A program made the position numbers and the translations under genes. Positions 10,979 through 42,999 of a stretch of 60,392 nt of DNA are shown piece by piece; positions within the stretch are counted from its first letter, which is position 1, and every line of letters starts with the position of its first letter. The notes beneath the pieces were generated by a model. It searched no databases. It saw nothing but the letters and a program-made list of their open reading frames with translations, and was not told where the DNA came from. This stretch comes from Bacteroidaceae bacterium (GTDB lineage Bacteria; Bacteroidota; Bacteroidia; Bacteroidales; Bacteroidaceae): contig JAKSLT010000003.1 in assembly GCA_024401055.1 (NCBI GenBank), positions 1 to 60,392 on the forward strand. Reading direction: 5' to 3'.

Positions 10979-11250
10979 GCATAAAATGCGCAGCTTTTTC
11001 GCGAGCATTATAGCGTCAGTCGGGCCGCAGCGCGCAGTGCTGCGTGCTCGGGGAGCGTTGCCGTGCAATAATGCGAGGCTTTTTCGCCGAACATTATAGT
11101 GCAAATCAAGCCGCTGCGCGAAGTGCAGCGTCGCTTGGAGCGCGGTGCTTGCAATAATGCGAGGCTTTTTCGCCGAACATTATAGCGCAAATCAAGCCGC
11201 TGCGCGAAGTGCAGCGTCGCTTGGAGCGCGGTGCTTGCAATAATGCGAGG
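10979..11250. repeat. 86-bp tandem repeat, three units plus a partial fourth
   Basis: Units begin at 10979 (diverged), 11065 and 11151 (almost identical to each other), with a partial unit from 11237. Each unit contains an internal hairpin (CGCTGCGCGAAGTGCAGCG). Because 86 is not a multiple of 3, small frames running through it change phase, so it is unlikely to be coding. It lies between the -7 box at 11251-11258 and the CotH gene, and is probably transcribed as leader. Confidence 0.9.
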
Positions 11251-11470: not shown

Positions 11471-11501
11471 GACACCGCCGAAGTCAATCCTCAGCGGTGT
11501 C
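11471..11501 (-). terminator. Hairpin, possible terminator of the GYF operon
   Basis: GACACCGC at 11471-11478 pairs with GCGGTGTC at 11494-11501. Read leftwards it is followed by TGTTTGT, a weak U-tract. Confidence 0.4.
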
Positions 11502-11598: not shown

Positions 11599-11821
11599 TT
11601 ATATTTCCCTACACCCAAGTATCTCCTTCACAGTCCGTCCAAATACCGTCTTCACATAGCGGAAGGTGAGGAAGTGGTTGGGGAGGATGCTCTCCGCTAT
11701 TTCCTGCCGCTGGGAGAACATTCGGGCATAGTCCGCCTTTATGGCCTCGCCCAGTACGTGGTCGTGCGCCGTGTGGTGGCAGAGGGTACGGGAGAGGGGC
11801 TCTAGTCGTACGTACCGGCAA
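11599..11821 (-). pseudogene. Orphan C-terminal fragment, family not recognised
   Basis: A frame of about 70 residues downstream of the GYF operon reads like genuine protein, with segments ADYARMFSQRQEIAESILP and NHFLTFRYVKTVFGRT. It is GC-rich, like the core genome and unlike the AT-rich operon beside it. Its open frame only reaches a start by overlapping the end of the upstream gene. I take it as the truncated tail of an older gene cut by arrival of the operon. I do not recognise the family, and a short intact gene starting at the internal methionine (MFSQRQ) cannot be excluded. Confidence 0.35.
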
Positions 11822-11824
11822 ACA

Positions 11825-12589
11825 TCATTGGACTGGAGCAATAGGTGGTACTGGAGGGGTCGGTGGTAACGAAGAGGAGCCAAAGGCAAAAGCTAACTCT
11901 GGCAGATTACTTGCCGGTATCCACGAAGGCAAACCATCCTTCCAGACCATAGTAGTCGAAGAAAGCACTCCTTGTTGAACTAAAGCCTGAAGTTCATTCA
12001 TTGTATAAGGGCCTTGTTGTTGGCCACTTATTAACGCATATAGTTTTACATCTGTAACAGGAGGAGGTGTTGCATCCTTCATTGCTGTAGTTGCTTGTGA
12101 ATAAATAACGTTATTGGCAGCTTCTTGATGACGATTATATGCCTGAGCGGCACTCGCGGCAGCACTCGCGGCGGCGGCTTGGGCATTCAGAGCCTCTGTC
12201 GCAGCTTTTGCTGCTTTGTCTGCCTGAGACTGTAAATAATCTGCCTTGAGCCTTGAAATGGCAGATTCACATTCATATGAAGAATTGATTTCCTCTCCGT
12301 CAGGTCCTACCAACTCTATCAACTCAAGATAATTATCATTCATACCAAGAGCATATATTTTCTCTATTTCCTCGGCATCGGATTTGGAAAAGCCCTTAAT
12401 TGTCTCACCATTAAAATTTATTGTAGTGATGCCTATTAGGCTTGTTGAAGAAGAAATAGACTTCTGACAGGAATACTCCGTAAAATCATCTTTACTACCA
12501 AACACTCCAGGTTTAATAAGATGAATACCTTTGGAATCCAAGCGGATTTGCAATCCCATTCCTGTAATACCACTTTTAAATGTTTTCAT
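11825..12589 (-). CDS. PH-like N-terminus plus GYF_2 domain protein
   Basis: The 254-residue protein begins with a beta-rich domain ending in GETIKGFSKSDAEEIEKI, which resembles bacterial PH domains (residues about 1-85). An Ala-rich helical stretch (about 120-165, many AAxAA steps) follows, probably a coiled coil. A GYF_2 (DUF4339) domain spans about residues 182-236, with the family hallmarks GQQQGPYTMNELQALVQQG and TMVWKDGLPSWIPA. The last 18 residues are proline-rich (LPPTPPVPPIAP). GYF domains bind proline-rich peptides, so this protein carries both a possible receptor and a possible ligand. Last gene of a six-gene leftward operon. Function unknown, perhaps membrane-associated through the PH-like part. 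Confidence 0.75.
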   Translation of the reverse strand: MKTFKSGITGMGLQIRLDSKGIHLIKPGVFGSKDDFTEYSCQKSISSSTSLIGITTINFNGETIKGFSKSDAEEIEKIYALGMNDNYLELIELVGPDGEEINSSYECESAISRLKADYLQSQADKAAKAATEALNAQAAAASAAASAAQAYNRHQEAANNVIYSQATTAMKDATPPPVTDVKLYALISGQQQGPYTMNELQALVQQGVLSSTTMVWKDGLPSWIPASNLPELAFAFGSSSLPPTPPVPPIAPVQ

Positions 12590-12614
12590 ATTAATTAATT
12601 TAATTTAATTTTGC

Positions 12615-13030
12615 CTACAACCTTTCAAGCGTTTCGGCTATCTCTTTTTGCAAACTTTGGCAGATACTTCCTATGTTAAAATCTATTCCTTTATTAGATT
12701 TAACATATATATTATAGATAAAAACACTACTATAATAATCCCTGTAATTATCACGTAATAAGGCATTACAACACCCCATATGGAAAATCCCAAATGTACT
12801 AACAGGAAAATAAAGAAAAAGCAGGCTGAACACACTCGTATATTTATGCTCGTTCGTACAGAATCATACTTCAGTCCCATTAAAGGGAGTAATGTGCTAA
12901 ACAGACTTATGCCACAACAAATGCCACATAACACATCGTTGCAACCTCTTTCTGCAAATGTGTAGACAAGAAAACCTATCAGGGCTGCAAGACAAAGACT
13001 AAAAAACGAAAGAAATATGTTTACTTTCAT
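12615..13030 (-). CDS. Small four-helix membrane protein, probable frameshift near its end
   Basis: From the ATG at 13030 the frame encodes 115 residues (stop at 12683) with four hydrophobic segments (for example LSFFSLCLAALIGFLVYTF and YYVIITGIIIVVFLSIIYM). Immediately beyond, the neighbouring frame continues as GIDFNIGSICQSLQ...AETLERL to a stop at 12615. That reads as a natural cytoplasmic tail, so a +1 shift near 12690-12700 (within CTAATAAAGGAATAG) would join the two. Either the 115-residue form is complete, or the gene is frameshifted by mutation, sequencing error or programmed slippage. It lies 17 bp after the preceding gene in the operon. Function unknown; it resembles the small membrane partners found beside SPFH proteins. 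Confidence 0.6.
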
Positions 13031-13047
13031 CGTGAATTATTTTTAAA

Positions 13048-13392
13048 TCAAGGCAGAGGGGGAGGGGCCAAAGCCACGATACGCAAGGCTTCTGGCACTT
13101 GCTCTAGTGGTTTCCATCCAACCATGCCAGGCATCCATACTAATGACTGTGGAGTGACACGACGTTGTGCTACCAAGTGAGAAAATTCAGCATCTGTCAG
13201 CGGGCCAATAGCCTGACCTTCGACAGCCACATGCAATGGCCGAGGCCGTGCGGCCGGCATACTCTGAATGCTGCCAGGCACATACATTGACTGCATACTT
13301 TCATTCATCACGCGCACCATTTGCTGCGCCATAGCCATACCCATTCCGAACTCTACGAGACGGTCAATGGAAAAAAAACTATCGTTGTTCAT
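13048..13392 (-). CDS. Short GYF_2 domain protein
   Basis: The 114-residue protein starts at the ATG at 13392 (MNNDSFFSIDRLVEFG), 5 bp after the stop of the gene before it. The longer frame to 13470 would overlap that gene and was rejected. A helical N-terminus (about 10-35, methionine-rich) is followed by a GYF_2 domain (about 53-102: VEGQAIGPLTDAEFSHLV and SLVWMPGMVGWKPLEQVPEA). It ends in ALAPPPLP. It keeps the same domain-then-prolines order as its three operon neighbours, in a much shortened form. Probably an adaptor; no enzymatic motif is seen. Confidence 0.7.
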   Translation of the reverse strand: MNNDSFFSIDRLVEFGMGMAMAQQMVRVMNESMQSMYVPGSIQSMPAARPRPLHVAVEGQAIGPLTDAEFSHLVAQRRVTPQSLVWMPGMVGWKPLEQVPEALRIVALAPPPLP

Positions 13393-13397
13393 TTTTT

Positions 13398-14249
13398 TCA
13401 AAAGGCTGGGGGAGGAATTCTCCCCTGAAATAAATGTTGCAAAGACGGAATATTGTAAGCACATTCCCATTGTGGCATACCCGCAGTCCAGACAAGTGTA
13501 TTAGAATTAACCACATTACGATTTATTAGTGAAATAAACACCTCCGATTCTAATGGGCCCTCTTGTCTTCCATTTAGCATAGCATAAAAAGCTGGTAACC
13601 GAGAAGGAATTTGGGCTAGAGATGTCTCTGTTTGAGATAAGGACATTAGAGGCTCTTTTTTGTATATCCCTTTATAAATTAAAGGTATTTCCCCTAAACT
13701 CAATTCTATCTCTGCCATTTTAAATCTCATTACATACACATCTCTATGTTCTGGGGCCACATAGATGTAGTTACGTTCCAAATTTATAAAGCCATCCACA
13801 TCTATGGGACATGGGCAAAATAGTATTATCTTAGCGCCTTCCTCATAAAAAAATTCTTCTATGGTATTAACTGTTGGTGGAATAACTATACATTCAAGAG
13901 AGCTACAGCCATATAATGCATCTTCCTCTATTTTTTCAACTCCCAAAGGAAAAATAATCTGTCGTAACGACTCTGCATATTCAAAGCATTCTTTAGGGAT
14001 TACCTTTAAATGAGAGACTTTTGAGAAGTCCACCGTGGCTAGATTTTCCAGATTGGTATTACCTGAGACCTTCAGAGTCTGCAACGTACTTGGAAAAACA
14101 ATACTTACGACCTCTTCTGGAAAAGCGGACATATCTACCTCTGTCGTACCCTCTCCAATTATAAAGTTTGCACCATCTTTTGTAAACATCATATAGTCTA
14201 ACCGCTGATCAGAATTGTCTTGAGTTTTATAAGAAGAGAATAAGTTCAT
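13398..14249 (-). CDS. BspA-type leucine-rich repeat protein with GYF_2 domain
   Basis: The 283-residue protein has no signal peptide, so it is likely cytoplasmic. Residues of about 25-170 carry irregular leucine-rich repeats of the BspA (LRR_5) kind, with phrases such as VVSIVFPSTLQTLKVSG and IPKECFEYAESLRQIIFP. A GYF_2 domain spans about 222-272 (AMLNGRQEGPLESEVFISLI and TLVWTAGMPQWECAYNIPSL), and the protein ends in GRIPPPAF. BspA repeats normally occur on secreted adhesins, so a cytoplasmic version linked to GYF_2 is unusual. It lies 22 bp downstream of the SPFH gene. Likely a binding module in a multiprotein assembly. Confidence 0.75.
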   Translation of the reverse strand: MNLFSSYKTQDNSDQRLDYMMFTKDGANFIIGEGTTEVDMSAFPEEVVSIVFPSTLQTLKVSGNTNLENLATVDFSKVSHLKVIPKECFEYAESLRQIIFPLGVEKIEEDALYGCSSLECIVIPPTVNTIEEFFYEEGAKIILFCPCPIDVDGFINLERNYIYVAPEHRDVYVMRFKMAEIELSLGEIPLIYKGIYKKEPLMSLSQTETSLAQIPSRLPAFYAMLNGRQEGPLESEVFISLINRNVVNSNTLVWTAGMPQWECAYNIPSLQHLFQGRIPPPAF

Positions 14250-14271
14250 ACCATAACTTTTTTATTTAATA

Positions 14272-15636
14272 CTACAATGGAGGAGGCACGGTACCTGGCA
14301 CGGGAGGAACACCACCTGACACAGAAGGTGCAAAGAGGTTCCCTAATTCTGGCACAAAACCAGCAGCAGTCCATTGCGCCATTCCCTGCTTCCACACAAG
14401 CGTCTGCGCCGTTAACTGACCCATTTGAGCCATTTGCTGAAGTTGAACCATATTAAACGGCCCTGATTGTTGACCATTCAGTGCTACCATGAATGAAACG
14501 GATGGAACCGAGGGAGGCGTGTTCATTGCATTCTGCATCTGCTGACCCATATTGTTCATCATGCCGGCCATTTGAGACCCCATGGCACCACCCATCATCA
14601 TACCAGTCATCATTCCTGCAGGATTCATAGATCCTGTTCCCCCTCCTAAGTTCACTGTGCCCATTTTACCAAGATTTTGAACGCCGGACTTGAGCACTTC
14701 TGCCTGTAAATTTAAGGCATGGGCACCGATAAAGTTGCTTTCCGACTGCAGTTTTTGGGCTCTCTGAGCCTCTTCGCGCTGGATACGCATGGTTTCCTTG
14801 AGATTCTCGGAATTCATGGCTTGCATCTCCTGCATGTTCTTTATGCCGAGGTCTGCTTGAACACGCATTGTACGAGCTTTGATATCGCCTGTAAGACTCT
14901 TCACCTGAGCATAGGCTTCGGAGTCCTTATCTATCTCAAGAGAACTAATGTCTATATGCTTCATCTTCACGCCAAACTCGTCAAGTCGGGGCTTCAACTG
15001 TCCTTCAAGATAGTCACTCACCTCATCTATCCGACGTTCCATTTGGACTACTGGCATACCAAGATCTGAAGGCAGATTAGTCACTACCCCTTTTATCTTT
15101 CTTACCATCGCGTCCTTTATCTGGTTTTTGAAAGCATCCAAATCAAAGTTCACAAGACGATTGAGTTTGATGAAATTCCTATAATCCTCAAGCGCAAAGG
15201 TGAGCGTACCTCTAACAGCCACGGGTACAGGATAGTCCTCCAGACGGGGATCCACTACATCAAAGTAGGGCACGGTAAACTTCACTTGATTACTGCCCTG
15301 AAGATTTATAAAATAAATCTCTGCCTGAAAAGGACTTTCCCCACCAAAGGCCAACCCTACGATACTTGAAAGCACAGGGAAGTTGGCAGTTTTTATCGTA
15401 TCGTCATAAGGCCCCTCAATAAAGTCTTGATTCGGCCCGTTCTTCTGCTTATAAACAAAGACGGCCACTTCGCCATCCTTAACTCTAAGGCTGCTACCAT
15501 AACGTATGCTGTTTTCACGAGTAGTACTGTTTACGTCCTGTCCAAGAGGTCGCCATTTCCATACGAGGTACTCTGTCTCATCGCAACGGATGACATTCAT
15601 CAACCCGCCGCCTTTTCCTTTTCCAAAAAGTCCCAT
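14272..15636 (-). CDS. SPFH domain protein with GYF_2 domain
   Basis: The 454-residue protein starts MGLFGKGKGGGLMNVI and has an SPFH-type core (about 30-270) like those often labelled virion core protein or YdjI-like, including a DGEVAVFVYKQK strand and a long helical part (VKMKHIDISSLEIDKDSEAY...). A coiled coil (about 270-320), a methionine/glycine-rich segment (about 333-368) and a GYF_2 domain (about 376-430, with NGQQSGPFNMVQLQQMAQMG and TLVWKQGMAQWTAAGFVPEL) follow. It ends in GVPPVPGTVPPPL. SPFH proteins form ring-like scaffolds on membranes. In Bacillus subtilis an SPFH protein (YdjI) works with a zinc-ribbon membrane protein (YdjG) and YdjH; the pairing with the gene just upstream here is similar. 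Confidence 0.85.
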   Translation of the reverse strand: MGLFGKGKGGGLMNVIRCDETEYLVWKWRPLGQDVNSTTRENSIRYGSSLRVKDGEVAVFVYKQKNGPNQDFIEGPYDDTIKTANFPVLSSIVGLAFGGESPFQAEIYFINLQGSNQVKFTVPYFDVVDPRLEDYPVPVAVRGTLTFALEDYRNFIKLNRLVNFDLDAFKNQIKDAMVRKIKGVVTNLPSDLGMPVVQMERRIDEVSDYLEGQLKPRLDEFGVKMKHIDISSLEIDKDSEAYAQVKSLTGDIKARTMRVQADLGIKNMQEMQAMNSENLKETMRIQREEAQRAQKLQSESNFIGAHALNLQAEVLKSGVQNLGKMGTVNLGGGTGSMNPAGMMTGMMMGGAMGSQMAGMMNNMGQQMQNAMNTPPSVPSVSFMVALNGQQSGPFNMVQLQQMAQMGQLTAQTLVWKQGMAQWTAAGFVPELGNLFAPSVSGGVPPVPGTVPPPL

Positions 15637-15664
15637 AATAATGTTGTACGGTTTTCTATTTCAA

Positions 15665-16810
15665 TTAATTCTCAATATAGTTGTCAGGATATTTTATTTC
15701 GTCCGGTGCATCATACATGTAGGGGCGATATTCACCATCATCGTCCATAATCTTGACGGAACTTATCTGGCCTGCCAAAGCACGCTTCTTCTTTAAATAA
15801 TTTTCCTTGTAATCACTTTTATCACCATCAATATCTGTCCATGTAATTTTGAGGAGTTGAGATTCCACCTCTTTATAATTATATTCATCTGGTGTCTCAA
15901 GTTCATCAAGTTTCAACATTAAATTCTCATACTGTGCCTTAGCTTGTGGTTCAACAGCTTTCGAATTATTATGAGAAACAATCATATATCCAATAAGCGC
16001 TATTACTACAACTCCGGCAACAGCACCCAACCCTATCCAAAGTTTTTTGTTTGAATTCTTCTTCATGTAAGCCTTAATCTGCTCATATTCTGGTTCCCCA
16101 CTAAGTGAGAAATGAGCTTTGGCTACAACCTGTGCCATCTTTGCTTTCCAGACTTGTCCCATTCGCTTTTCGTAACTTTGCTTGTAGAATTTGTTATAAA
16201 GTATATATCCTGCTATACCCAATGGAACAACACCGGCACCACCAAATAGACATAATGGCAAACCAACAACAATAAGGACTATACTGAATACAAACCAAGC
16301 AATGAGTGAACCTGACATTCTATTTCCGTCCTTTATATAAGTGGATGCTGTAGTAAGAAATTCTATAATATCAGCCTTAGCTGTAGGAATTGGATAAGCC
16401 TTTATTAAACTTGATGCTTGATTAAAGATTTCTTCTTCATTGTATTCTTTCCTCTCTGACTCAATTTTTGTTAACTGATTAAAAAGATCCGTAATAGAAG
16501 AAACCGCTTTTACATTAGTAAAAACATATCCACACTCACTACATTTAACAGAACCTGGCACTACCGGAGATCCGCAATTGGGGCACTTTGTAACATTGCC
16601 ATATTTCTCATTTGCAGGTGGCACAGGCTTGAGCCAATCTGTTTCTCGCTTCATTTTAGCGAGACGACCCTCAATAACTACATCCAGTTCATCGGGATCC
16701 ACACCTTCTTGAGCTGCTCTTTTGTGAAGAACTGCACGTTCTTTGTCTGTCAATACACCATCGGCAAGAGCTGCCTCGATGAATTCTTCTAATGATTTTG
16801 AAAATGCCAT
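15665..16810 (-). CDS. Zinc-ribbon membrane protein with TerB-like N-terminus
   Basis: The 381-residue protein begins with a helical TerB-like segment (ALADGVLTDKERAVLHKRA, residues about 14-32). A zinc ribbon uses C76, C79, C90 and C93 (CPNCG and CSECG). Two or three membrane segments lie at about 160-205, and one more at about 255-278 (LWIGLGAVAGVVVIALIGYM). The C-terminal soluble part is about 100 residues. It resembles B. subtilis YdjG in combining a zinc ribbon with membrane helices next to an SPFH gene. First gene of the operon, 28 bp before the SPFH gene, and the only soluble-domain member without GYF_2, although it has a PVPP stretch. Probably the membrane anchor. Confidence 0.7.
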   Translation of the reverse strand: MAFSKSLEEFIEAALADGVLTDKERAVLHKRAAQEGVDPDELDVVIEGRLAKMKRETDWLKPVPPANEKYGNVTKCPNCGSPVVPGSVKCSECGYVFTNVKAVSSITDLFNQLTKIESERKEYNEEEIFNQASSLIKAYPIPTAKADIIEFLTTASTYIKDGNRMSGSLIAWFVFSIVLIVVGLPLCLFGGAGVVPLGIAGYILYNKFYKQSYEKRMGQVWKAKMAQVVAKAHFSLSGEPEYEQIKAYMKKNSNKKLWIGLGAVAGVVVIALIGYMIVSHNNSKAVEPQAKAQYENLMLKLDELETPDEYNYKEVESQLLKITWTDIDGDKSDYKENYLKKKRALAGQISSVKIMDDDGEYRPYMYDAPDEIKYPDNYIEN

Positions 16811-16925: not shown

Positions 16926-16963
16926 GGTTCATTTTGGTTCATTTCCAGTTCATTTTGGTTCAA
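16926..16963. repeat. GGTTCATTTTGGTTCA direct repeat, possible operator
   Basis: The motif GTTCATTTTGGTTCA occurs at 16927-16941 and 16948-16962, 21 bp apart. An inverted copy (TTGAACCAAAATGAACC) lies at 17311-17327, so the same motif faces the SPFH operon on one side and the small gene at 17374 on the other. A shared regulator could bind here (inference). Confidence 0.6.
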
Positions 16964-17294: not shown

Positions 17295-17373
17295 GGCCTA
17301 CAATATAAACTTGAACCAAAATGAACCGAAGAGACTTGAAGTTATTTTCGTAACTTCGCGCAGGATTTTAAGG

Positions 17374-17781
17374 ATGAAAAAATCGGCAGACATCTCAAAG
17401 TTCAATCTGAGGCTCCGCAAGGAGGTGGAAGAGAGAATGGGCGCACATGTCAATACGCCCAAGGATTTTGTGCGTCTGCACGACATGGTCTTCAGCGAAC
17501 TCCACGTCGGCATCAGTATCAGCACGCTCAAACGTTACTGGGGATACGTGTCAGCGCCGGCGCACTATCAGCCCAATCTTTTTACGCTCAACACTCTGAC
17601 GCACTTCGTGGGCTATCGCGATTGGGAGGCCTTCATCGCCGGCGACAAAAAGAAAGCGACACCCGGCAAAACCGAGCGTCGCAAGAAGATGGAGGCTGCT
17701 CTCTCTCGCATAGAGAGCCAGATGACCCGCCTCGGGGAGGAGGTGGCCATGCTGCACAGGCTACTGCATGAGGATGAATAG
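17374..17781 (+). CDS. Small protein with STLKR-GYV domain and C-terminal coiled coil
   Basis: The 135-residue protein starts at the ATG at 17374 (MKKSADISKFNLRLRKEVEE). The longer frame to 17212 would begin inside the structured RNA and was rejected. Residues of about 10-85 form a domain with TPKDFVRLHDMVF, ISISTLKRYWGYVSA and FVGYRDWEAF. The segment around STLKR looks like a recognition helix, so DNA binding is possible. The C-terminus (about 95-135) is a coiled coil. The same domain occurs in the convergent gene at 17761-18330, making them paralogues. I know this family only as a Bacteroidetes protein of unknown function. An inverted GGTTCATTTT motif lies 47 bp upstream. Confidence 0.65.
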   Translation: MKKSADISKFNLRLRKEVEERMGAHVNTPKDFVRLHDMVFSELHVGISISTLKRYWGYVSAPAHYQPNLFTLNTLTHFVGYRDWEAFIAGDKKKATPGKTERRKKMEAALSRIESQMTRLGEEVAMLHRLLHEDE

Positions 17782-18330
17782 TATGCCGTGCTTGTTTCCA
17801 CATACGTAATTGACGGGCGCCGCACCCTGCATCACGACGTCTTCGAGATACAGCGCTTCGCCCTTTATGAAGAGGTGGCAACGGAAGGTGTCGCCTACGC
17901 TCAGTTTGCTCCCCACACTGCTCTCCACCGCGAAACGGTGGTGTCCGATGCAGCGAAACACGCACTCGTGATCGGGCTGCCACATCACCCGCAACCTGTC
18001 ATCCACGCATATCTCGTCGGCACTCAGGCTCTCGGACAGCAGCGGCGTACTCTCCAGACCTCCCGCCGACGCCGTGCGGTGGCAGAAGGCGGCCCACGAC
18101 TGATAGCCCACATACTGGCTCAGGATGTCCAACGTGGCACGCCGCTGCCCGCCGTCGCTGCTCACATAGCCATACAGACGCTTCAGCGTGCTCACGCTCA
18201 CGCTCTGACGTGTTTTCTCAAAGATGCTCTCCGCAAGAATGTCGAAGTCCCGGGCCGTCTGCATCGTGCGTCCGGCCACGGCCTCTATCTGCTTGCGCAG
18301 CGCACGTTCATTATTATTCTCTTCTGTCAT
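17761..18330 (-). CDS. STLKR-GYV domain protein with extra C-terminal domain
   Basis: The 189-residue protein shares its first 85 residues with the convergent neighbour (ARDFDILAESIFEKT, VSVSTLKRLYGYVSS, YVGYQSWAAF), then adds a domain of about 90 residues that may be a small beta-barrel (DRLRVMWQPDHECVFRCIG..., KGEALYLEDVV). Its start overlaps the end of the upstream kinase gene by 17 bases, so the two are surely co-transcribed and perhaps functionally linked. Its stop overlaps the end of the rightward paralogue by 21 bases. Function unknown; a DNA-binding or signalling partner of the kinase is a reasonable guess. Confidence 0.65.
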   Translation of the reverse strand: MTEENNNERALRKQIEAVAGRTMQTARDFDILAESIFEKTRQSVSVSTLKRLYGYVSSDGGQRRATLDILSQYVGYQSWAAFCHRTASAGGLESTPLLSESLSADEICVDDRLRVMWQPDHECVFRCIGHHRFAVESSVGSKLSVGDTFRCHLFIKGEALYLEDVVMQGAAPVNYVCGNKHGILFILMQ

Positions 18331-19582
18331 TGCCGCTAAGTGTTTCGGTGAGGACGTTTGTATATTGGTTGTTGATATAGTCGCCCAGTGCTATATAGAG
18401 GGCCATGCTTTCCTGCTCTGTGAGCTTGCCGTCCCATTCTTTCTGCATGGCTTGCACCTCCTTCATTCCCCGGAGATAGAAGTGGGTCGATTGCTGGGTC
18501 AAATCCCTCTTTCTCCGCGGCGATAAAGGCTGCGCTGTCTCTCCCCGTAGCGTATCAAGGAAGGCCGCGTAGCCCATTTCTGCCATCAGTTTGTCGATAC
18601 GGCGGCAACCCCGCTCTTTCTCTTCCGCGTAGAAGTTGGCGGCGGGCACGGCCTTCGTGACGGTAGGATCCTCCCCTCCTTGGGGGAGGTTGGAGGGGGC
18701 CTTTACCGCGGCAGGGCGGGACTTCACGGTGTCGTTCTGGTCGCCGTCTGTTGTCTGTTGTCCGTTGTCAACATGCACGGCCACCACGGCTATTATGCCC
18801 AGCATTATGCCGCCTGCCAGCGTCAGCCATCGCCGGCGCCGGTCCACGCGGGCAAGGGCCTCCCGCAACTCTTGGGCTCCGTTGTAGCGCCGCGTAAGTT
18901 TCGCCGTGCAGCGTCGCACCACGGGAGCGTACATCGCTCCCAGACGCAGCTCCCGAAGTATCACGCCGAGGCTGTATATATCGTTACGCACGTCGGGACT
19001 GCCGCCTTTCTGCTGCTCGGGCGACACATACGCCGGCGTGCCCGCTGCCTGCTTCAGCACAGCGTAGTTGTCGGCATCGGCCAGCCCGAAATCGATGATT
19101 TTGAGGTTATGGCCGTTGTCCGTGACGAGGATATTCTGGGGCTTCAGGTCACGGTGCACCACCTGATGGGCATGCACCCACGCCACAGTCTCCACCATCT
19201 GTTCGGCCAAGCGGCGGCGCTCCGCGCGGCTGCCTACGAAGGCATCGAGCGTGAGGCCCTGCACATATTCCATCACGAGGCACTCACCAAGGCCCTCCAC
19301 CGGCTCCAGACCCACGGCCTTCACCACACAGGGGTGACTCAGCCGCGTCAGTACGTCATATTCTTTCTGCAACAGACCCTCGTAAAACGCCTGCCCCACG
19401 TATTCCTTCTTCAGGCACTTCAACACCCACCACTGGCCTTGTCGCCGCGCTTTCAAGAGACGGCAATAGGCTCCCTCGGCCATCTCTTCGATTTCGAAAA
19501 AGTCGCGCTCATCCACCGCACGGCTGTTTGCTACGGGAGGCGAAAGTATGCCGGAAGGCAGGATTGTTGGGTTGGGGGACAT
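18314..19582 (-). CDS. Membrane-anchored Ser/Thr protein kinase
   Basis: The protein has 422 residues from the ATG at 19582. An in-frame ATG at 19615 lies only about 8 bases from the predicted transcription start, so the shorter form is preferred. Kinase motifs are intact: the Lys in WVLKCLK, HRDLKPQN at about 143-150, DFG at about 164-166, and an activation segment TPAYVSPEQ. A basic stretch RVDRRRR precedes one membrane helix (about 253-270: LTLAGGIMLGIIAVVAV). The C-terminal 150 residues lie outside the membrane and resemble no domain I know. It is a Hanks-type receptor-like kinase with an outer domain for sensing. A GC-rich repeat element encodes KAPSNLPQGGEDPT in the linker after the helix. 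Followed by an overlapping gene. Confidence 0.85.
   Translation of the reverse strand: MSPNPTILPSGILSPPVANSRAVDERDFFEIEEMAEGAYCRLLKARRQGQWWVLKCLKKEYVGQAFYEGLLQKEYDVLTRLSHPCVVKAVGLEPVEGLGECLVMEYVQGLTLDAFVGSRAERRRLAEQMVETVAWVHAHQVVHRDLKPQNILVTDNGHNLKIIDFGLADADNYAVLKQAAGTPAYVSPEQQKGGSPDVRNDIYSLGVILRELRLGAMYAPVVRRCTAKLTRRYNGAQELREALARVDRRRRWLTLAGGIMLGIIAVVAVHVDNGQQTTDGDQNDTVKSRPAAVKAPSNLPQGGEDPTVTKAVPAANFYAEEKERGCRRIDKLMAEMGYAAFLDTLRGETAQPLSPRRKRDLTQQSTHFYLRGMKEVQAMQKEWDGKLTEQESMALYIALGDYINNQYTNVLTETLSGNDRRE
18670..18704. repeat. REP-like element inside the kinase gene
   Basis: The sequence CTCCTTGGGGGAGGTTGGAG and its G-rich continuation lie in frame in the linker after the membrane helix. It is the same kind of element as at 56851-56880. 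Confidence 0.65.
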
Positions 19583-19628
19583 GAGATGGGGAAAATGCTG
19601 CGCGAAGGGCTGCATAGCTTATTGCATG

Positions 19629-22650: not shown

Positions 22651-23640
22651 TCAGTCTAACTTGTACTTTGTAATGTCGGTTCCAAACGACAGATTCTGAC
22701 TCGCGAGCAAATCATCAAGCTCGGTGAGCGATTTCTTGCCGAAGTTGCGGAACTTCAAGAGGTCGGCCTTGTTGAGCTGAACGAGGTCGCCGAGGGTCTC
22801 TACGTTGGCTGCCTTGAGGCAGTTGAGAGCGCGCACGGAGAGGTTCAGGTCGGTGAGCTTTGTCTTGAGCTGCTGACGCATGCGGAGCACTTCTTCGTCG
22901 AACTCCTGAGGACGTGAGTCCAGGACGTTGTCGAGGGTGATGCGCTCGTCGGAGAAGAGGGCAAAATGCTGGATGAGTATTCTTGCGGCCTCTCTCAGGG
23001 CGTCCTTCGGGTGGATGGAGCCGTCCGTGGTGATTTCCAGCACGAGGCAGTCGTAGTCGGTCTTCTGCTCGACACGGCAGGGCTCAACGCTGTACTTCAC
23101 GTTGCGGATGGGGGTGTAAATAGAATCGATTGGGAGCTGATTGATGGCTGTGCAGAAGATGCGGTTTTCCTCAGCGGGAACCCATCCACGGCCTTTGTTG
23201 ATGGTCAGCTCTATCTGCATCGTGGCTTTAGAGTCTAAATGACAAATCACCAGTTCGGGATTCAACACTTCAAACCCTGTGAGATACTTGCCGAGGTCAC
23301 CTGCGCGGAACTCTGTTGTGTTGCTGAGGGTGACGGCAATTTTCTCTTCCGCGAATTCTTCTACTATTTGCCTGAAGCGCACTTGCTTCAGATTGAGTAT
23401 CATGTTCGTCACGTCTTCCCTTACTCCAGGCACGGAGGCAAACTCGTGGTCAACGCCGTCTATCTTGATGGTGTTGATAGCGAAACCTTCGATGGAAGTG
23501 GAGAGCAGGATGCGGCGGAGGGCGTTGCCAATGGTATGACCAAAGCCGGGCTCCAAGGGACGGAATTCAAACTTTCCGTACTTGGGGTCGTCTTCCACCA
23601 TGATTACTCTGTCAGGCTTTTGAAATGCTAGTATCGCCAT
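22651..23640 (-). CDS. rpoA: RNA polymerase alpha subunit
   Basis: The 329-residue protein is of normal length. The N-terminal assembly domain has [17 protein letters not shown]-type sequence (residues about 33-50) and the C-terminal domain has [20 protein letters not shown], the DNA- and activator-contacting helix-hairpin-helix. Alpha dimerises to start assembly of RNA polymerase. It lies between rpsD and rplQ, the standard alpha-operon position. Confidence 0.98.
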
Positions 23641-37308: not shown

Positions 37309-39642
37309 ATGGAAAACGTATTTGTGCCCAACCCCACTGCGGACTACAACGAACCAGAGACACGCGACTTCATCACCGATGCCCTCAAGGCTAAGGGATG
37401 GCAGATCCACAAGAACATGCGTTACGAGTATCCTATCACCGACGGACAGATACACATCGGCGAGGACGGTGAGCCCAGACGCGAGACTCCGCGCTTTGCC
37501 GACTATCTCCTCTTCGCCCCCAACGGCAAGCCTCTCGCCGTGGTGGAAGCCAAGCGCGCCGGCAAACTCGGCAGCACGGGTATCCAGCAGGCCATAGAGT
37601 ACGCACGCCTCATCGACGCTCCCTTTGCTTTCTCCAGCAACGGCAAGGAGTTCGAGTATTACTGCATGGCCAATGCCGGGCAGGCCACGCTCTCTATGGA
37701 TTCCTTCCCCACACAGGACGAACTCTGGCAGCGCTACTGCTACAACCAGGCCTACACGCCCGAGCAGATTGAGATTGTCAGCAAGCCCTACTACAACGAC
37801 GCCGAGGGCCGCGAGCCGCGTTACTATCAGCGCATCGTCATCGACCGCGTGGTAGAGGCCTTCGCACGCGGACAGAAGCGCATGATGTTCGTCATGGCCA
37901 CGGGTACGGGCAAGACCTACACGGCCTTCCAGATTCTCTACCGCCTCCTCCAGTCAAGCGTAGCCTCAAACATGCGCATCCTCTATCTGGCCGACCGCAA
38001 CATCCTCATCGACCAGACGATGGCGCAGGACTTCAAGCCCTTCGGCAAGAAGATGGTGAAGATTGAGCAGCGCACGGCTTCGCAGAGTCACGAGATTTTC
38101 ATGAGCCTCTACCACCAGCTCGTGCAGTACAACCTGCCGGAGGGCGCGCCCCAGCCCTACGAGCAGTTCAACCGCGACTTCTTCGACGTTATCATGATTG
38201 ACGAGTGCCACCGCGGTTCGGCGCGCTACAACTCCGAGTGGCGCAAGATTCTCGACTATTTCTCCTCCGCCACCCATATCGGCATGACGGCCACGCCGAA
38301 GGACGACACCGACGCCAACAACAGCAACATCGGCTACTTCGGCGAACCCCTCTACACCTATTCCCTCCGTCAGGGCATCGAGGACGGTTTCCTCGCTCCC
38401 TACCGCATCACGCAGGCGCATATCAACGTGGATTCCGAGGGCTACGTCCTGCGCGAGCCCGAGGCCGAGTATTTTGAAAACAAAAGCACCGGCGACCGCC
38501 TCTATCAGGACGACCTCCCGCGCCACGCCGGCATCGAGGAGCACTACGACGTGGCAGCACGCCGCATCACGCAGATGCTCGAGGAGATAGGCCCCATGAC
38601 GAAGACCATCGTCTTCTGCGACGAGGAGATTGACGCCGCCGAGATGCGCAAGGCGCTCATCCGCCACAACCAGCAGCGGCAGGTGGAGAACCAGAACAAG
38701 TACATCATGCGCATCACCGCCTCCGATGCCGAGGGCAAGAAGGAGATTACCAACTTCATCTCCAAGAACTCCCCCACGCCCACCGTCGTCACTACCTCGC
38801 AGCTCCTCTCCACGGGTGTCGATACGAAGACCGTGGGCCTCATCGTGCTCTATCGCAACATCACCTCCATGACGGAGTTCAAGCAGATTATCGGACGCGG
38901 CACGCGCATCGTGGAGCAGCGCAAGTACTATTTCGACATCCTCGACTTCCGCGGCGCCACGGAACTCTTCTTCGACCCCGCCTTCGACGGCGAACCCCTG
39001 CCCCCTACCCACGAAGGCACCGGCGCCGGCAACAAGAAGAAGCGCCCCACGACGGCGAAGGTCTATAAGCCCATCCTCGGCGGTTCGGGCCAGGAGATTC
39101 TCATCGACCACGAGAAGAAGATGGTGCTCGACAAGGACGGCCGCCCCATCACCACCTCCTACATCGACTATTCCGCCACGCATTTCCACAACATTTTCTC
39201 CTCGCTCGACGATTTCCTCCAGCGTTGGAACGCCGCCGAGCGCAAGCAGGCCATCGTGGATATCATCGAGCAGGAGGGCGTAGATTTCTCTGCCCTGCGC
39301 GCCCTCTATCCCGAGCAGTATGCCGACCGCGACATCTTCGACATCATTCTGGGCATCGCCTTCCAGCAGCAGATGCTCTCACGCCGCGAACGTGCCCGTC
39401 GCGTCAAGGAGAAAAAGCTTTTGGAACGCTATAGCGGCGACGCCCGCCGCGTGCTGGAAATCCTCCTCGACACCTACGCCATCCACGGCATCCTCGCCTT
39501 CGAGAATCAGGAGGCCCTCAAGGTCAGCGAGATTGCCAGCATCGGCACACCCCTCTATATCAAGAAGGCCCTCTTCGGCGGAACCGAGGAATACAAAGCG
39601 CTCATCCGCGAGATAGAAGAGATTCTCTACGCCACGGCGTAG
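37309..39642 (+). CDS. hsdR: Type I restriction enzyme, R subunit (EcoEI-like)
   Basis: The 777-residue motor and nuclease subunit of a type I restriction-modification system cuts unmodified DNA after translocation. The N-terminal nuclease domain has the pattern RFADYLLFAPNGKPLAVVEAK (about residues 63-84, with the D...E.K catalytic core). Helicase motor: Walker A ATGTGKT at about 197-203, Walker B DECH at about 298-301, motif III MTATP, and motif VI QIIGRGTRI. The C-terminal 150 residues would contact the methylase complex. The start at 37309 follows a good promoter. First of three genes, whose gaps are filled by decamer arrays. Confidence 0.93.
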   Translation: MENVFVPNPTADYNEPETRDFITDALKAKGWQIHKNMRYEYPITDGQIHIGEDGEPRRETPRFADYLLFAPNGKPLAVVEAKRAGKLGSTGIQQAIEYARLIDAPFAFSSNGKEFEYYCMANAGQATLSMDSFPTQDELWQRYCYNQAYTPEQIEIVSKPYYNDAEGREPRYYQRIVIDRVVEAFARGQKRMMFVMATGTGKTYTAFQILYRLLQSSVASNMRILYLADRNILIDQTMAQDFKPFGKKMVKIEQRTASQSHEIFMSLYHQLVQYNLPEGAPQPYEQFNRDFFDVIMIDECHRGSARYNSEWRKILDYFSSATHIGMTATPKDDTDANNSNIGYFGEPLYTYSLRQGIEDGFLAPYRITQAHINVDSEGYVLREPEAEYFENKSTGDRLYQDDLPRHAGIEEHYDVAARRITQMLEEIGPMTKTIVFCDEEIDAAEMRKALIRHNQQRQVENQNKYIMRITASDAEGKKEITNFISKNSPTPTVVTTSQLLSTGVDTKTVGLIVLYRNITSMTEFKQIIGRGTRIVEQRKYYFDILDFRGATELFFDPAFDGEPLPPTHEGTGAGNKKKRPTTAKVYKPILGGSGQEILIDHEKKMVLDKDGRPITTSYIDYSATHFHNIFSSLDDFLQRWNAAERKQAIVDIIEQEGVDFSALRALYPEQYADRDIFDIILGIAFQQQMLSRRERARRVKEKKLLERYSGDARRVLEILLDTYAIHGILAFENQEALKVSEIASIGTPLYIKKALFGGTEEYKALIREIEEILYATA

Positions 39643-39650
39643 CCCCCCCG

Positions 39651-39742
39651 ATTGATTCTTCTCGATTGCAATCGACTGCAATCGATTCCAATCGACGCCC
39701 CGCTCGATTCTTCCCGATTCCAATCGATTCCAATCGACAACC
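39651..39742. repeat. 10-bp CAATCGA array, first copy
   Basis: CAATCGA recurs at exactly 10-bp steps (39669, 39679, 39689; then 39721, 39731). Variants of TCGATTNNAATCGA make each unit near-palindromic. It fills the gap after hsdR, and a C-rich tract follows up to the next ATG. Confidence 0.9.
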
Positions 39743-39769
39743 CTCAACCCCCTCCCCCCCCCCACCACC

Positions 39770-40516
39770 ATGATAAAAATCACCTCAACCTCCGGCTACA
39801 TGAAGATGGACTTCTGGATCCTCTCCTACATCCTCCAACTCGGCACGATGGAGTTCTGCCAGCGTTTTCTCGACATGCGCGTTGACCCCAAGGGGCGCTG
39901 GCTCGACCAGATGACGCAGGCGGCGCGCTCCATCACCGAGAACATTGCCGAGGGAGCCTCGCGCCATCAAACCTCGCGCGAGACGGAGATGAAACTCCTC
40001 GACGTGGCGCGTGCCTCCGCCAACGAACTGGCGGGCGACTTCATGTTCTGGCTGTCGCTGAAGGGCGAGTTGTGCTGGAGCCGCCACGACCCGGCATACA
40101 ACGCCGTCCGCCAACTGCGTCTCGACCCCGCCTACTATGACGACGACGAACTCATCGTCCGCGAGGCGATGCGCCACGCCCTACAGCAGAAGTCGCGCTT
40201 CGACCATTGGCTGAAGGCCGACGACGTCACCGCCGCCAATGCCCTCCTGGTGCTGACGGGGCGCGTCATCAAGATGATAGAGGCACAGCTGCAAGGACTT
40301 CTCGAGCAGTTCCGCGAGGAAGGCGGCTTCACCGAGAACATGACGCAGGAACGCCTCGCCGCCCTCAAGCAGAAAGCCACCGCCGAGGGAGCCCCCACCT
40401 GCCCCAAATGCGGCGCCCCCATGCGCAAGCGTATGATAAAGAAAGGCACCCACCAGGGCGAGGAGTTCTGGGGCTGCACCGAATACCCCCGCTGCGACGG
40501 AACGAGGCGCCTCTGA
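39770..40516 (+). CDS. Four-helix-bundle protein with topoisomerase-type zinc finger
   Basis: The 248-residue protein begins with a four-helix-bundle region (about residues 15-190) of the S23-like type, including QAARSITENIAEGASRHQTS. A C-terminal C4 zinc finger (CPKCGAPMRKRM...GEEFWGCTEYPRC, about 208-243) resembles the DNA-binding fingers at the end of topoisomerase I. Four-helix-bundle suffix proteins of this kind are often found next to type I restriction genes; the role is unknown. DNA binding by the finger is a fair inference. It sits between hsdR and hsdM, with a decamer array on each side. Confidence 0.8.
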   Translation: MIKITSTSGYMKMDFWILSYILQLGTMEFCQRFLDMRVDPKGRWLDQMTQAARSITENIAEGASRHQTSRETEMKLLDVARASANELAGDFMFWLSLKGELCWSRHDPAYNAVRQLRLDPAYYDDDELIVREAMRHALQQKSRFDHWLKADDVTAANALLVLTGRVIKMIEAQLQGLLEQFREEGGFTENMTQERLAALKQKATAEGAPTCPKCGAPMRKRMIKKGTHQGEEFWGCTEYPRCDGTRRL

Positions 40517-40535
40517 GCGCGGCCCACCGCCCCCC

Positions 40536-40707
40536 GATAGATTCTTCCCGATTGCAATCGACCCCAATCGATTCCAATCGACGCCCCGATTGATTCCCCT
40601 CGATTCTTCCCGATTCCAATCGATTCCAATCGATTCCAATCGACAACCCTCAACCCCCCTCGATTCCAATCGACCCCAATCGACTGCAATCGACCCCAAT
40701 CGACAAC
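40536..40707. repeat. 10-bp CAATCGA array, second and longer copy
   Basis: CAATCGA at 40555, 40565, 40575; 40617, 40627, 40637; 40667, 40677, 40687 and 40697, always in 10-bp register. It shares longer blocks with the first copy (for example AATCGACAACCCTCAACCCC), so one was probably copied from the other. Confidence 0.9.
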
Positions 40708-40713
40708 AAAAAA

Positions 40714-42999
40714 ATGACATTCTCCTGGAAAACCGCCCGCGACATCATGCGCGCAGACAGCAACGTAAGCACCGAATACCAGCGACTCGAGCAGTTCGTC
40801 TCGCTCGTCTTCCTCCGTATCTACAACGCCCTTGAAGAAGAGTGGGCCGACGAGGCCGACTCCGAAGGCCGCGACTACACCCCCGCCCTCCCCGACGAGT
40901 ACCAGTGGGACGCATGGGCCCTCCCCGACGCCGCCGGAAAGGCGCTCACCGGAGAAGAGCTCGTCCTCCACCTCAATGCCCTCTACCGCCACTGCGCCAC
41001 CATGTCAGTCGTAGGCCTCGAACCCCGGCAGAAAATCGTGCGACGCGTCTTCGAGGGCCTCACCCAGCACATGCGCGACGGCTACCAGCTCCGCCAGCTC
41101 ATCGACCTCGTCAACTCCCTCAACTACCACGACGCCCGCCAGCGACACCTCTTCGGACAGATGTACGAGGAAATGCTCCGCATCATGCAGTCGAGCAAGG
41201 AGACGGGCGAATACTACACGCCACGCGCCGTCACGCAGTTCATCGTGGAGCAACTCAACCCCCGCCTCGGCGAGCGCTTCGGCGACTTCGCCTGCGGCAC
41301 CGGAGGATTCCTCACCGCCGCCATCGACCACCTCCACCGCGCCGGCGTCAGCACCAAGAAAGAGGTGGAGCAACTCCAGCAAGCCATCGTGGGGTGCGAA
41401 CTCAAGAGCATCCCCTACCTCCTCTGCGCCACCAACCTCCTCGTCCACGGCATCGACAACCCCACCCTCACCGCCGGCACCGCCTTCTCCAAAAACATCA
41501 ACGACTACGACGACTGCGAGCGCGTGGACGTCATCGGCATGAACCCGCCCTACGGCGGCATGACCACCGCCACCGAGCTCACCAACTTCCCCGAGAACGT
41601 GCGCACCTCCGAGACCGCCGTCCTCTTCCTCGCCTACATCTGCAAGCGACTGCGGGAAGGCGGACGCGCCGGCGTCATCATCCCCGACGGCTTCCTCTTC
41701 GGCTCCGACGGCGCCTCCGTAGAAGTGAAGAAACTCCTCCTCCAGCACATGAACCTCCACACCATCGTGCGCCTCCCCTCCAGCGTCTTCGCCCCCTACA
41801 CCAGCATCACCACCAACATCCTCTTCTTCGACAACCGCACCGCCCCCGGCGCCCCCGCCGGCTTCCGCACCAAGGACGTGTGGGTATATCGCCTGGACAT
41901 GCCCGAAGGCTACAAGCACTTCTCCAAGACAAAGCCCATCCTCCCCGAGCACATGCAGCCCCTCAAAGAGTGGTGGCTCGACCGCCGCGAACTCACCGAC
42001 CCCACCGACGACCCCGCCCGCCTCACCTACAAGGCCCGACGCTTCACCGCTGCCGAAATCGCCGAGAGCGGCTACAACCTCGACCTCTGCAAATACCCCA
42101 AGGAAGAAGAAATCATCCTCACCCCCGACGAACTCCTCGCCGACTACCACGAGCGCCGCACCGCGCTGGACGCAGAGATAAGCCGCAGGCTCTCCTCCGT
42201 CGGGAGATTGATAAGCGGCGACGACATAGAGAGCTGCCCCCCTGAAATCCTTAACCCTTGGAAAGATTTGGGAGCCTTGACCGAGAACTTGCCCGACAAA
42301 CTGCGCAAATCCGTTCTGCAAGAAGCCATCCACGGTCGCCTCGTACCCAACACCCTACAACCCGGAGAACTCACCGCCCGCGAACTCCTCAACGACATCC
42401 TCTCCGCACGACAAAAAACCGAAAACGAAACCAAAGGCAAAAAAGCCAAAAAACTCACACTCAACAAGGTTGATGAAGAGCCGTGGGAGTTGCCGGAGGG
42501 GTGGTGCTGGTGCAGGTTGGGGGATATTGCAAATATAAATGGCGGTTTTGCTTTTAAGAGCACAGATTATAAGAAAGAAGGATATAGGGTTATTCGTATT
42601 TCCGATTTTAACGAACAGGGCTTTGTTAACAAGTCAATTGTAAGATACGATTATGAAGAGAAATTAGCACCATACCTTCTTCAACAAAATGACATACTGA
42701 TGTGTATGACAGGCGGGACTGTGGGTAAAACATACTATGTGACCAATATCAATGAACCAATGCTTGTCAATCAGCGTGTAGCAACTATACGAGCAATTGG
42801 ATTGAGTTCTGATTATGTAAACTTTTTCATTAAGTCCCCATATATTGCGCAAATAATTGAAGATTGCAAGAACTCTACAAACGACAATATCTCAATGGGA
42901 GATATTTTGGGATTTCATTTCCCCCTTCCCCCACTCTCCATTCAGCACGAAATTGTCTCAAAAATCGAGGAAATTTTTGCTGTTTTAGACTCGTTTTGA
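40714..42999 (+). CDS. hsdM: Type I methylase fused to a half specificity subunit (HsdM-HsdS)
   Basis: The 761-residue protein combines both functions. Residues 1 to about 500 are an N6-adenine methyltransferase HsdM: helical N-terminus, SKETGEYYTPRAVTQFIV, motif I FACGTGGF near 191-198, and NPPY near 277-280. A linker (about 520-595, PDKLRKSVLQEAIHGRLVPN) resembles the conserved helices of HsdS. One target-recognition domain (about 600-745, GWCWCRLGDIANINGGFAFK...) follows, with a final coiled-coil helix. There is no separate hsdS. A lone half-S could dimerise to read a symmetric site. From about 42520 the DNA becomes clearly AT-rich, unlike the GC-rich methylase part, so the recognition domain was probably exchanged. 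Confidence 0.9.
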   Translation: MTFSWKTARDIMRADSNVSTEYQRLEQFVSLVFLRIYNALEEEWADEADSEGRDYTPALPDEYQWDAWALPDAAGKALTGEELVLHLNALYRHCATMSVVGLEPRQKIVRRVFEGLTQHMRDGYQLRQLIDLVNSLNYHDARQRHLFGQMYEEMLRIMQSSKETGEYYTPRAVTQFIVEQLNPRLGERFGDFACGTGGFLTAAIDHLHRAGVSTKKEVEQLQQAIVGCELKSIPYLLCATNLLVHGIDNPTLTAGTAFSKNINDYDDCERVDVIGMNPPYGGMTTATELTNFPENVRTSETAVLFLAYICKRLREGGRAGVIIPDGFLFGSDGASVEVKKLLLQHMNLHTIVRLPSSVFAPYTSITTNILFFDNRTAPGAPAGFRTKDVWVYRLDMPEGYKHFSKTKPILPEHMQPLKEWWLDRRELTDPTDDPARLTYKARRFTAAEIAESGYNLDLCKYPKEEEIILTPDELLADYHERRTALDAEISRRLSSVGRLISGDDIESCPPEILNPWKDLGALTENLPDKLRKSVLQEAIHGRLVPNTLQPGELTARELLNDILSARQKTENETKGKKAKKLTLNKVDEEPWELPEGWCWCRLGDIANINGGFAFKSTDYKKEGYRVIRISDFNEQGFVNKSIVRYDYEEKLAPYLLQQNDILMCMTGGTVGKTYYVTNINEPMLVNQRVATIRAIGLSSDYVNFFIKSPYIAQIIEDCKNSTNDNISMGDILGFHFPLPPLSIQHEIVSKIEEIFAVLDSF

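Follow-up and report, generated by a model that had tools for sequence, protein, structure and literature searches.

The DNA considered here (the window) is a stretch of 60,392 nucleotides, positions 1 to 60,392 of contig JAKSLT010000003.1 in the Bacteroidaceae bacterium assembly GCA_024401055.1. Its positions 11825-16810 hold six open reading frames (ORFs) on the minus strand, all leftward and operon-like. Four genes of this operon constitute a unit that is conserved across genomes, namely a TerB-like/zinc-ribbon protein, an SPFH protein with a C-terminal GYF_2 domain (SPFH-GYF), a short GYF adaptor, and a membrane protein with four predicted transmembrane (TM) segments. By analogy with characterized SPFH systems, and with slightly better than even confidence, the operon may be read as a horizontally acquired inner-membrane scaffold that has an envelope maintenance or stress role and works without PspA.

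The six-gene operon and its conserved core

The genes, numbered 1 to 6 in the direction of transcription (Table 1), are separated by 28, 22, 5, 17, and 93 bp. The original prediction for this DNA described six leftward genes, four of them ending in GYF_2, and both the ORFs and Pfam confirm that description; its gaps of about 5-30 bp hold for the first four but not for the last. Specifically, Pfam places GYF_2 at the C-terminus of genes 2, 3, 4, and 6, with scores of 42.6-70.6 bits that all exceed the curated cut-off of 25.8. These are the only four GYF_2 domains found across the source assembly (2.3 Mb in 103 contigs, 83% complete), and the one Band_7_1 domain found there also belongs to this operon. 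The clustering of all four GYF_2 domains and the sole Band_7_1 domain in 5 kb exceeds chance. The genes were also correctly described as AT-rich relative to their neighbors, since their GC contents at third codon positions (GC3) are 0.29-0.49 against a mean of 0.76 (sd 0.11, minimum 0.55) for 22 further long ORFs in the window, of which a few may be spurious.

To define the conserved unit, the SPFH-GYF protein was scanned against genome contigs, and the best 80 of 272 stretches encoding a relative were used as loci. Most are titled as Bacteroidota, while one contig each carries the label Spirochaetaceae, Kapaibacterium, Erysipelothrix, Pedosphaera, or proteobacterium; many are metagenome bins, and the taxon labels may be wrong. 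Profile searches that take contig ends into account place the short GYF adaptor downstream of SPFH-GYF in 65 of 68 testable loci (66 counting a fusion); they find the four-TM protein in 65 of 68 and, close by with the same orientation, the TerB-like/zinc-ribbon protein in 63 of 70 (upstream in 58). These counts supersede an earlier one, all four core genes in 41 of 80 loci, which came from single-sequence searches and ignored contig ends. Identity to the window copies is 53-77% for the SPFH protein (31 sampled relatives), 36-66% for the adaptor (27 relatives), and 16-41% for the four-TM protein (22 relatives).

The same association is seen in whole genomes. The four-TM protein occurs in 8 of 151 genomes of the family, and all eight copies adjoin a GYF match. 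Among 295 genomes of the class, 11 matches pass an E-value of 0.001; five are full-length, including that of the window, and lie beside an adaptor or SPFH-GYF match, while five others are weak. Taken together, a full-length four-TM protein adjoins GYF or SPFH-GYF in 12 of 12 genomes (8 of the family and 4 further ones of the class). The arrangement is not invariant. In one genome (G349) the order is zinc-ribbon, SPFH-GYF, four-TM protein, with no separate adaptor, and some operons hold inserted genes, such as a bPH_1 protein (1e-46) in locus L084. The zinc-ribbon family (79 ORFs of 140-498 residues, 39 with a predicted TM segment) keeps its N-terminal half, whereas the rest is variable, and one of 25 scanned members carries a YARHG domain.

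A second SPFH-GYF-proline subfamily, of 364-391 aa, was encountered at 19 loci of the class (L115-L133). L161 and L115 denote a single place, where the gene that follows gives a weak zinc-ribbon-like match; several other members of the subfamily have a neighboring ORF of comparable length.

The individual proteins are annotated with differing strength. Gene 2 matches Band_7_1 at 1e-24 and GYF_2 at 9e-20, and no TM segment is predicted in its product. Gene 3 matches LRR_5, a leucine-rich repeat (LRR) family, at 9e-14 and GYF_2 at 5e-11; TM prediction found no hydrophobic segment in it, so no signal peptide is evident. Gene 4 (GYF_2, 3e-14) and the C-terminal cassette of gene 2 are co-linear; the start of gene 4 is most likely 13392, where homologues begin, and not the first ATG (13470). 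Gene 5 has nothing significant in Pfam. The zinc ribbon of gene 1 (Cys 76, 79, 90, and 93) matches Pfam at 5.5e-6, slightly below the cut-off. The N-terminal domain preceding it is probably TerB-like: the window protein matches DUF533 at 1.7e-3, below the cut-off, and at an E-value of 0.01 TerB and DUF533 each match 11 of 25 family members, the best TerB match being 3e-6. Gene 6, initially described as PH-like, does possess GYF_2 (5e-17), but its N-terminus has no Pfam match, PH domain included. Two relatives of this N-terminus (G396 and G260) lie in reading frames that show no GYF, and one of the two matches bPH_3 weakly; the match, in relative L154, is at 0.015, below the cut-off, and relative L155 has none. 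The PH identity is consequently a weak, transitive lead and not a result.

Table 1. Coordinates of the operon genes and of nearby features in the window
Feature	Positions	Strand	Description	Remark
Gene 1	15665..16810	-	TerB-like helical domain, zinc ribbon, two predicted TM segments, variable C-terminus	
Gene 2	14272..15636	-	SPFH (Band_7_1), Gly/Met-rich segment, GYF_2, proline-rich tail	Pfam
Gene 3	13398..14249	-	LRR_5, GYF_2, tail with IPPPAF end	Pfam
Gene 4	13048..13392	-	Short adaptor: Met-rich helix, GYF_2, APPPLP tail	
Gene 5	12683..13030	-	Small membrane protein of 115 aa, four predicted TM segments	
Gene 6	11825..12589	-	PH-like (unproven) N-terminus, helical linker, GYF_2, proline-rich tail	
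Repeat pair	16926..16962	+	Two copies of GGTTCATTTTGGTTCA, the second with one mismatch	Upstream of gene 1
Third repeat copy	17312..17327	-	16-mer GGTTCATTTTGGTTCA, opposite orientation	Upstream of hth2
hth2	17374..17781	+	Divergent regulator-like gene, 135 aa from likely ATG	TLKRYWGY motif family
hth1	17761..18330	-	Second member of the hth2 family, 189 aa	Host-like GC3
Ser/Thr kinase	18314..19615	-	Pkinase 3e-33, one predicted TM segment	
Hairpin	11471..11501	-	Terminator-like, 13 pairs	Behind gene 6

In contrast to the core, the four-GYF set appears to be a local elaboration, because LRR-GYF and PH-like-GYF were not found elsewhere. Counted over the 80 loci, some of which are cut by contig ends, GYF proteins number two in 63, one in 15, and three in 2. 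The original prediction had turned on whether the four GYF_2 fusions share a conserved neighborhood; this stands for the core, but the four-GYF combination was found in 0 of 80 loci, and neither LRR-GYF nor PH-like-GYF is among their extra genes. There was likewise no full-length relative of LRR-GYF among the scored matches in 150 other genomes of the family (at most 16 candidates), or of PH-like-GYF among those in 294 other genomes of the class (at most 9 candidates); with limited candidates scored and limited matches listed, neither absence is absolute. Three long partial matches considered as PH-like-GYF (G379, G398, and G404) turned out to be SPFH-GYF proteins.

That LRR-GYF and PH-like-GYF are seen here only would also fit a chance pile-up, in which unrelated acquired genes happen to encode the four GYF proteins and function is confined to the core. 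This seems unlikely, given that the genes lie 5-93 bp apart in one direction, that all have low GC3, that every GYF protein has a proline-rich tail, and that no further GYF_2 was found in the assembly.

The suggestion that the operon is a transferred cassette is upheld by its composition and by the presence of the core, scored by the four-TM gene, in only 2 of 9 genomes of the genus. Moreover, the relationships of the SPFH protein disagree with those of RpoA, the likely gene for which lies at 22654-23640. Identity to the window is 75% for RpoA and 76% for SPFH in genome G117, and 78 and 52%, respectively, in G093, while G099, the closest by RpoA (82%), is without a core match. Recent acquisition of the operon is the simplest reading. 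AT-richness was rejected as a property of the system itself: over 63 loci the core mean GC3 is merely 0.06 below the flanks, and the difference exceeds 0.15 in 6 of 63. The AT contrast at the window is special to this genome. Carriage by phage was also rejected. The sole phage record with an SPFH gene, MT835670.1 (L170), named Bacteriophage sp., is probably a bacterial contig; by eye it has ABC-transporter-like and two-component-like genes, together with a zinc-ribbon/SPFH-GYF pair. Among plasmids, 13 records match, all at below 60% identity and none over more than 80% of the query (best 29%).

GYF_2 domains, proline tails, and the proposed scaffold

All four GYF proteins of the window end in proline-rich tails, and such tails are common among their relatives. 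Of 110 SPFH-GYF ORFs, 102 have a PPP behind GYF and all 110 a PP; for 81 short-GYF ORFs the corresponding numbers are 55 and 65. The last 25 residues of 555 background ORFs contain PPP in 3 and PP in 15; in this comparison the window copies were excluded, the sets of relatives may contain near-duplicates, and some background ORFs are spurious. GYF domains of other proteins are known to bind PPG-phi motifs (PMC12171015). The proline tails are candidate ligands of GYF_2, and we infer that GYF domains and tails dock mutually. Fusions place the same parts in single proteins. In L110 the SPFH protein and the adaptor form one ORF of 574 residues, and in L060 and L064 GYF is fused to the zinc-ribbon protein. 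In addition, the alignment of the adaptor profile with the SPFH tail, which spans the Met-rich helix, the GYF domain, and the prolines, has a probability of 99.5%. The notion of tail-tagged cargo was dropped, as those of the inserted variable genes that were viewed had no proline C-termini.

SPFH proteins form membrane-abutting oligomeric domes with variable C-terminal caps (PMC12624060, PMC11260169). The YdjI protein of Bacillus subtilis is soluble, and its membrane localization needs YdjG and YdjH (PMC8581546). By analogy, the SPFH subunits encoded here would, like other SPFH proteins, build a dome at the cytoplasmic side of the inner membrane. The GYF_2 domains and the proline tails behind them would bind one another, both within and between proteins, and the short adaptor, which resembles a copied SPFH C-terminal cassette, would join the dome cap through such contacts. 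Anchoring of the dome would fall to the four-TM and zinc-ribbon proteins, as that of YdjI falls to YdjG and YdjH, while the LRR and PH-like GYF proteins could plug in here as extra client-binding or lipid-binding modules. The job of the assembly would most likely be envelope maintenance or stress response, with PspA not involved. A membrane scaffold had also been proposed originally, and homology supports that proposal.

Neighboring genes at other loci point to the envelope as well. Clustering identified, in six loci, a gene family near SPFH-GYF on the operon strand that is a CASTOR/POLLUX-type channel where annotated (L073:9045-11003, Castor_Poll_mid 2e-31), and a neighbor in L068 is a DUF6175 protein that looks exported. 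The channel type also accounts for two of 110 sampled neighbors, a sample consisting of 120 random ORFs out of 473 minus 10 known regulator-family or kinase rows. The presence of this family, in all six loci on the operon strand, could also be taken to mean that a stomatin-like SPFH assembly sets K+ channels, or that the four-TM protein is itself a channel. Just 6 of 80 loci have the family, however, and the window operon is without such a gene, which makes regulation of an ion channel distinctly unlikely.

Alternatively, the dome might serve protein quality control in the manner of HflK/C or flotillin assemblies, holding membrane-protein clients for which the zinc-ribbon, TerB-like, and LRR modules would be receptors. 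Published work implicates SPFH assemblies in quality control (PMC12624060, PMC11222466), and the TerB protein upstream in L065 has a weak DnaJ-type zinc match. Nevertheless, no protease or chaperone family is among the gene clusters common to at least 4 loci, and we regard this role as improbable.

A role in defense, raised in the original prediction, would take the form of an anti-phage or conflict system in which the LRR and PH-like proteins sense, the SPFH protein oligomerizes, and the four-TM protein is a membrane effector. The distribution is patchy and apparently transferred, and the LRR protein lacks an evident signal peptide. Some parts evolve fast, as the low identity of the four-TM protein (16-41%, 22 relatives) and the variable zinc-ribbon C-termini indicate, and some conflict systems of planctomycetes include GYF-domain proteins (PMC7159879). 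Nearby kinases match kinase models in PADLOC, and single neighbors match models such as PDC-S72, GajB, RTasHel, and mad2. On the other hand, the SPFH protein is well conserved (53-77%), and the six proteins themselves have no convincing PADLOC match. The weak ones range from 3e-4 to 6e-3, and the best are part-length (2.9e-4 to LeoBC for the SPFH protein and 1.6e-3 for gene 1). Among the 110 neighbors, PDC-S01 is the commonest of the PADLOC names listed (25 of 51) with 3 matches, the others having 1 each, and the Pfam families listed (25 of 106) are mainly metabolic, housekeeping, and regulatory. The matches are scattered, with no obvious enrichment of the kind expected of a defense island in these 110 of 473 neighbors, whose counts are without a baseline. 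With so little support from PADLOC for the six proteins and the 110 neighbors, defense was set aside as the main account and is considered very unlikely.

Regulator-like genes and an upstream repeat

Beyond the scaffold genes, the region upstream of gene 1 contains two members of a regulator-like family, hth1 and hth2 (Table 1). The family, which has a TLKR-W-GY motif, gave no Pfam match, and no structural match to it was found. Its C-termini vary, and in several loci its members lie beside Ser/Thr kinases; we infer that it binds DNA. In the 44 homologous operons with 5 kb on both sides, a member is upstream in 15 and downstream in 0 (sign test 6e-5, for loci that come from related species and are not independent). 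A related kinase is upstream in 10 of these 44 and downstream in 1, but gene clusters give a less clean picture, with 9 kinase genes upstream and 4 downstream in 11 loci. It is uncertain that the kinase of the window is part of the system. Copies of the hth family per genome (n = 11) number 4, 3, 2, and 1, followed by seven zeros.

The intergenic region between gene 1 and hth2 contains a 16-mer, GGTTCATTTTGGTTCA, in two copies near the operon, where they make up four phased half-sites, and in a third copy near hth2. At up to 3 mismatches there are 3 matches in the window against 0.38 expected. At up to 1 mismatch there are 3 in the whole assembly, all of them between gene 1 and hth2, and a reversed control gave none. 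The repeat is separated by 23 nt from a TAATTTTG element that reads into the operon, and 23 nt likewise separate the third copy from a TAACTTCG element on the hth2 side; both elements resemble the Bacteroidetes -7 consensus. The 16-mer is a putative operator common to the operon and hth2. Without its first base it occurs in none of 178 loci examined, and hence different loci do not share the repeat itself. Phased repeats upstream of other loci are no more than suggestive: in simple shuffles 3 of 7 upstream regions reach P ≤ 0.025 and 4 of 7 do not, the value for the window region being 0.015.

Several further features surround the operon. The number of hairpin sites in the region of the terminator-like hairpin behind gene 6 is within the shuffle range. 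A short reading frame behind gene 6 (11599-11889) may be a gene remnant. Between the operon and a gene for a CotH-type surface protein lie 86-bp tandem repeats (10995-11235), of which two copies are 99% alike and a third, partial copy is about 75% alike. Type I restriction-modification genes are located about 20 kb from the operon (37309-42999, plus strand) and comprise a restriction subunit (7e-228) and an ORF of 761 aa that matches methyltransferase and specificity models.

The scaffold reading and known SPFH systems

The scaffold reading can be extended to a plug-in code, whereby GYF domains and tails would be presented in many copies on the SPFH dome, to which any protein with the same cassette could dock. 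The LRR and PH-like proteins would then be new clients on a conserved core that has a dedicated regulator and a private operator. This extension is tentative, and we would call it possible but doubtful. The original prediction had missed the proline tails, the resemblance of the adaptor to the SPFH tail, the TerB-like domain, the upstream regulator-like family, and the repeat in common.

A number of observations weigh against the scaffold reading and its parts. One partial four-TM match in the class (G229) is without SPFH or GYF in the surrounding 4 kb. Behind GYF, 16 of 81 short-GYF ORFs have no PP, and 24 other GYF ORFs also show PP (19) and PPP (10) in this position, so such a tail does not set this system apart. 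Most of the tails described here have PPP but lack the exact PPG-phi motif. When compared alone with the SPFH segment, the Met-rich helix of the adaptor reaches a probability of 1.6%, which is not significant, and the homology between adaptor and SPFH tail accordingly comes mainly from GYF. An hth-family member is not within reach upstream in 29 of 44 loci, and G117 carries the core but has no such member in its assembly. Finally, the dome, the GYF-tail contacts, and the partner interactions are all predicted from homology and analogy, and an envelope stress role, the most likely one, is likewise argued by analogy.

SPFH proteins are very widespread, and the function of most bacterial ones is described as unclear (PMC12005517). 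The conserved four-gene unit identifies the partners, supplies a docking domain together with a likely ligand for it, and points to a candidate regulator that has a defined repeat; it might also represent a modular means of tethering proteins to a membrane dome in bacteria. No description of an SPFH-GYF operon system was found in the literature searched.

The resemblance to B. subtilis ydjGHI, which had been noticed at the outset, holds in that a Band_7_1 SPFH protein and a zinc-ribbon membrane protein lie in one operon. As in pspA-ydjGHI, the SPFH protein is cytosolic and has no TM segment, and a second membrane protein is encoded alongside. The Band_7_1 model also matches in B. subtilis, and the likeness to YdjI is drawn from published descriptions. 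In contrast, YdjI has a zinc finger near its C-terminus, where the protein described here has GYF_2 and a proline tail, and the operon described here adds a GYF adaptor, a TerB-like domain, the LRR and PH-like modules, and a regulator-like gene. YdjI links PspA to the membrane, and YdjG and YdjH recruit both YdjI and PspA (PMC8581546, PMC9239133). PspA scored above the cut-off in 0 of 12 core-bearing genomes (one weak sub-threshold match), several of whose assemblies, including that of the window, are 79-89% complete; the same model matches 9 of 14 control genomes. With no PspA above the cut-off, the job of the operon must differ from that of YdjGHI in this step. Because PspA and the C-terminal zinc finger are both missing, the operon is of the SPFH membrane scaffold type and not a member of PspA-YdjGHI.

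Other systems share single elements with this one. The domes of HflK/C, flotillin, prohibitin, erlin, and stomatin have the SPFH domain in common with it; here that domain is Band_7_1 with a C-terminal GYF_2, and a dome is predicted by analogy. The adaptor profile also matches, at 1.5e-10, the GYF domain of Adventurous gliding motility protein X (PDB 7z3c; NCBIfam GltJ), a bacterial GYF_2-type domain of solved structure. Against the whole GltJ model, the proteins described here score far below its cut-off, and GltJ belongs to a different machine. Band_7 (PF13421)-SHOCT proteins are similar in possessing a small, exchangeable C-terminal domain (PMC3581485). In the operon described here, GYF_2 replaces SHOCT, and further proteins of the same operon carry GYF_2.

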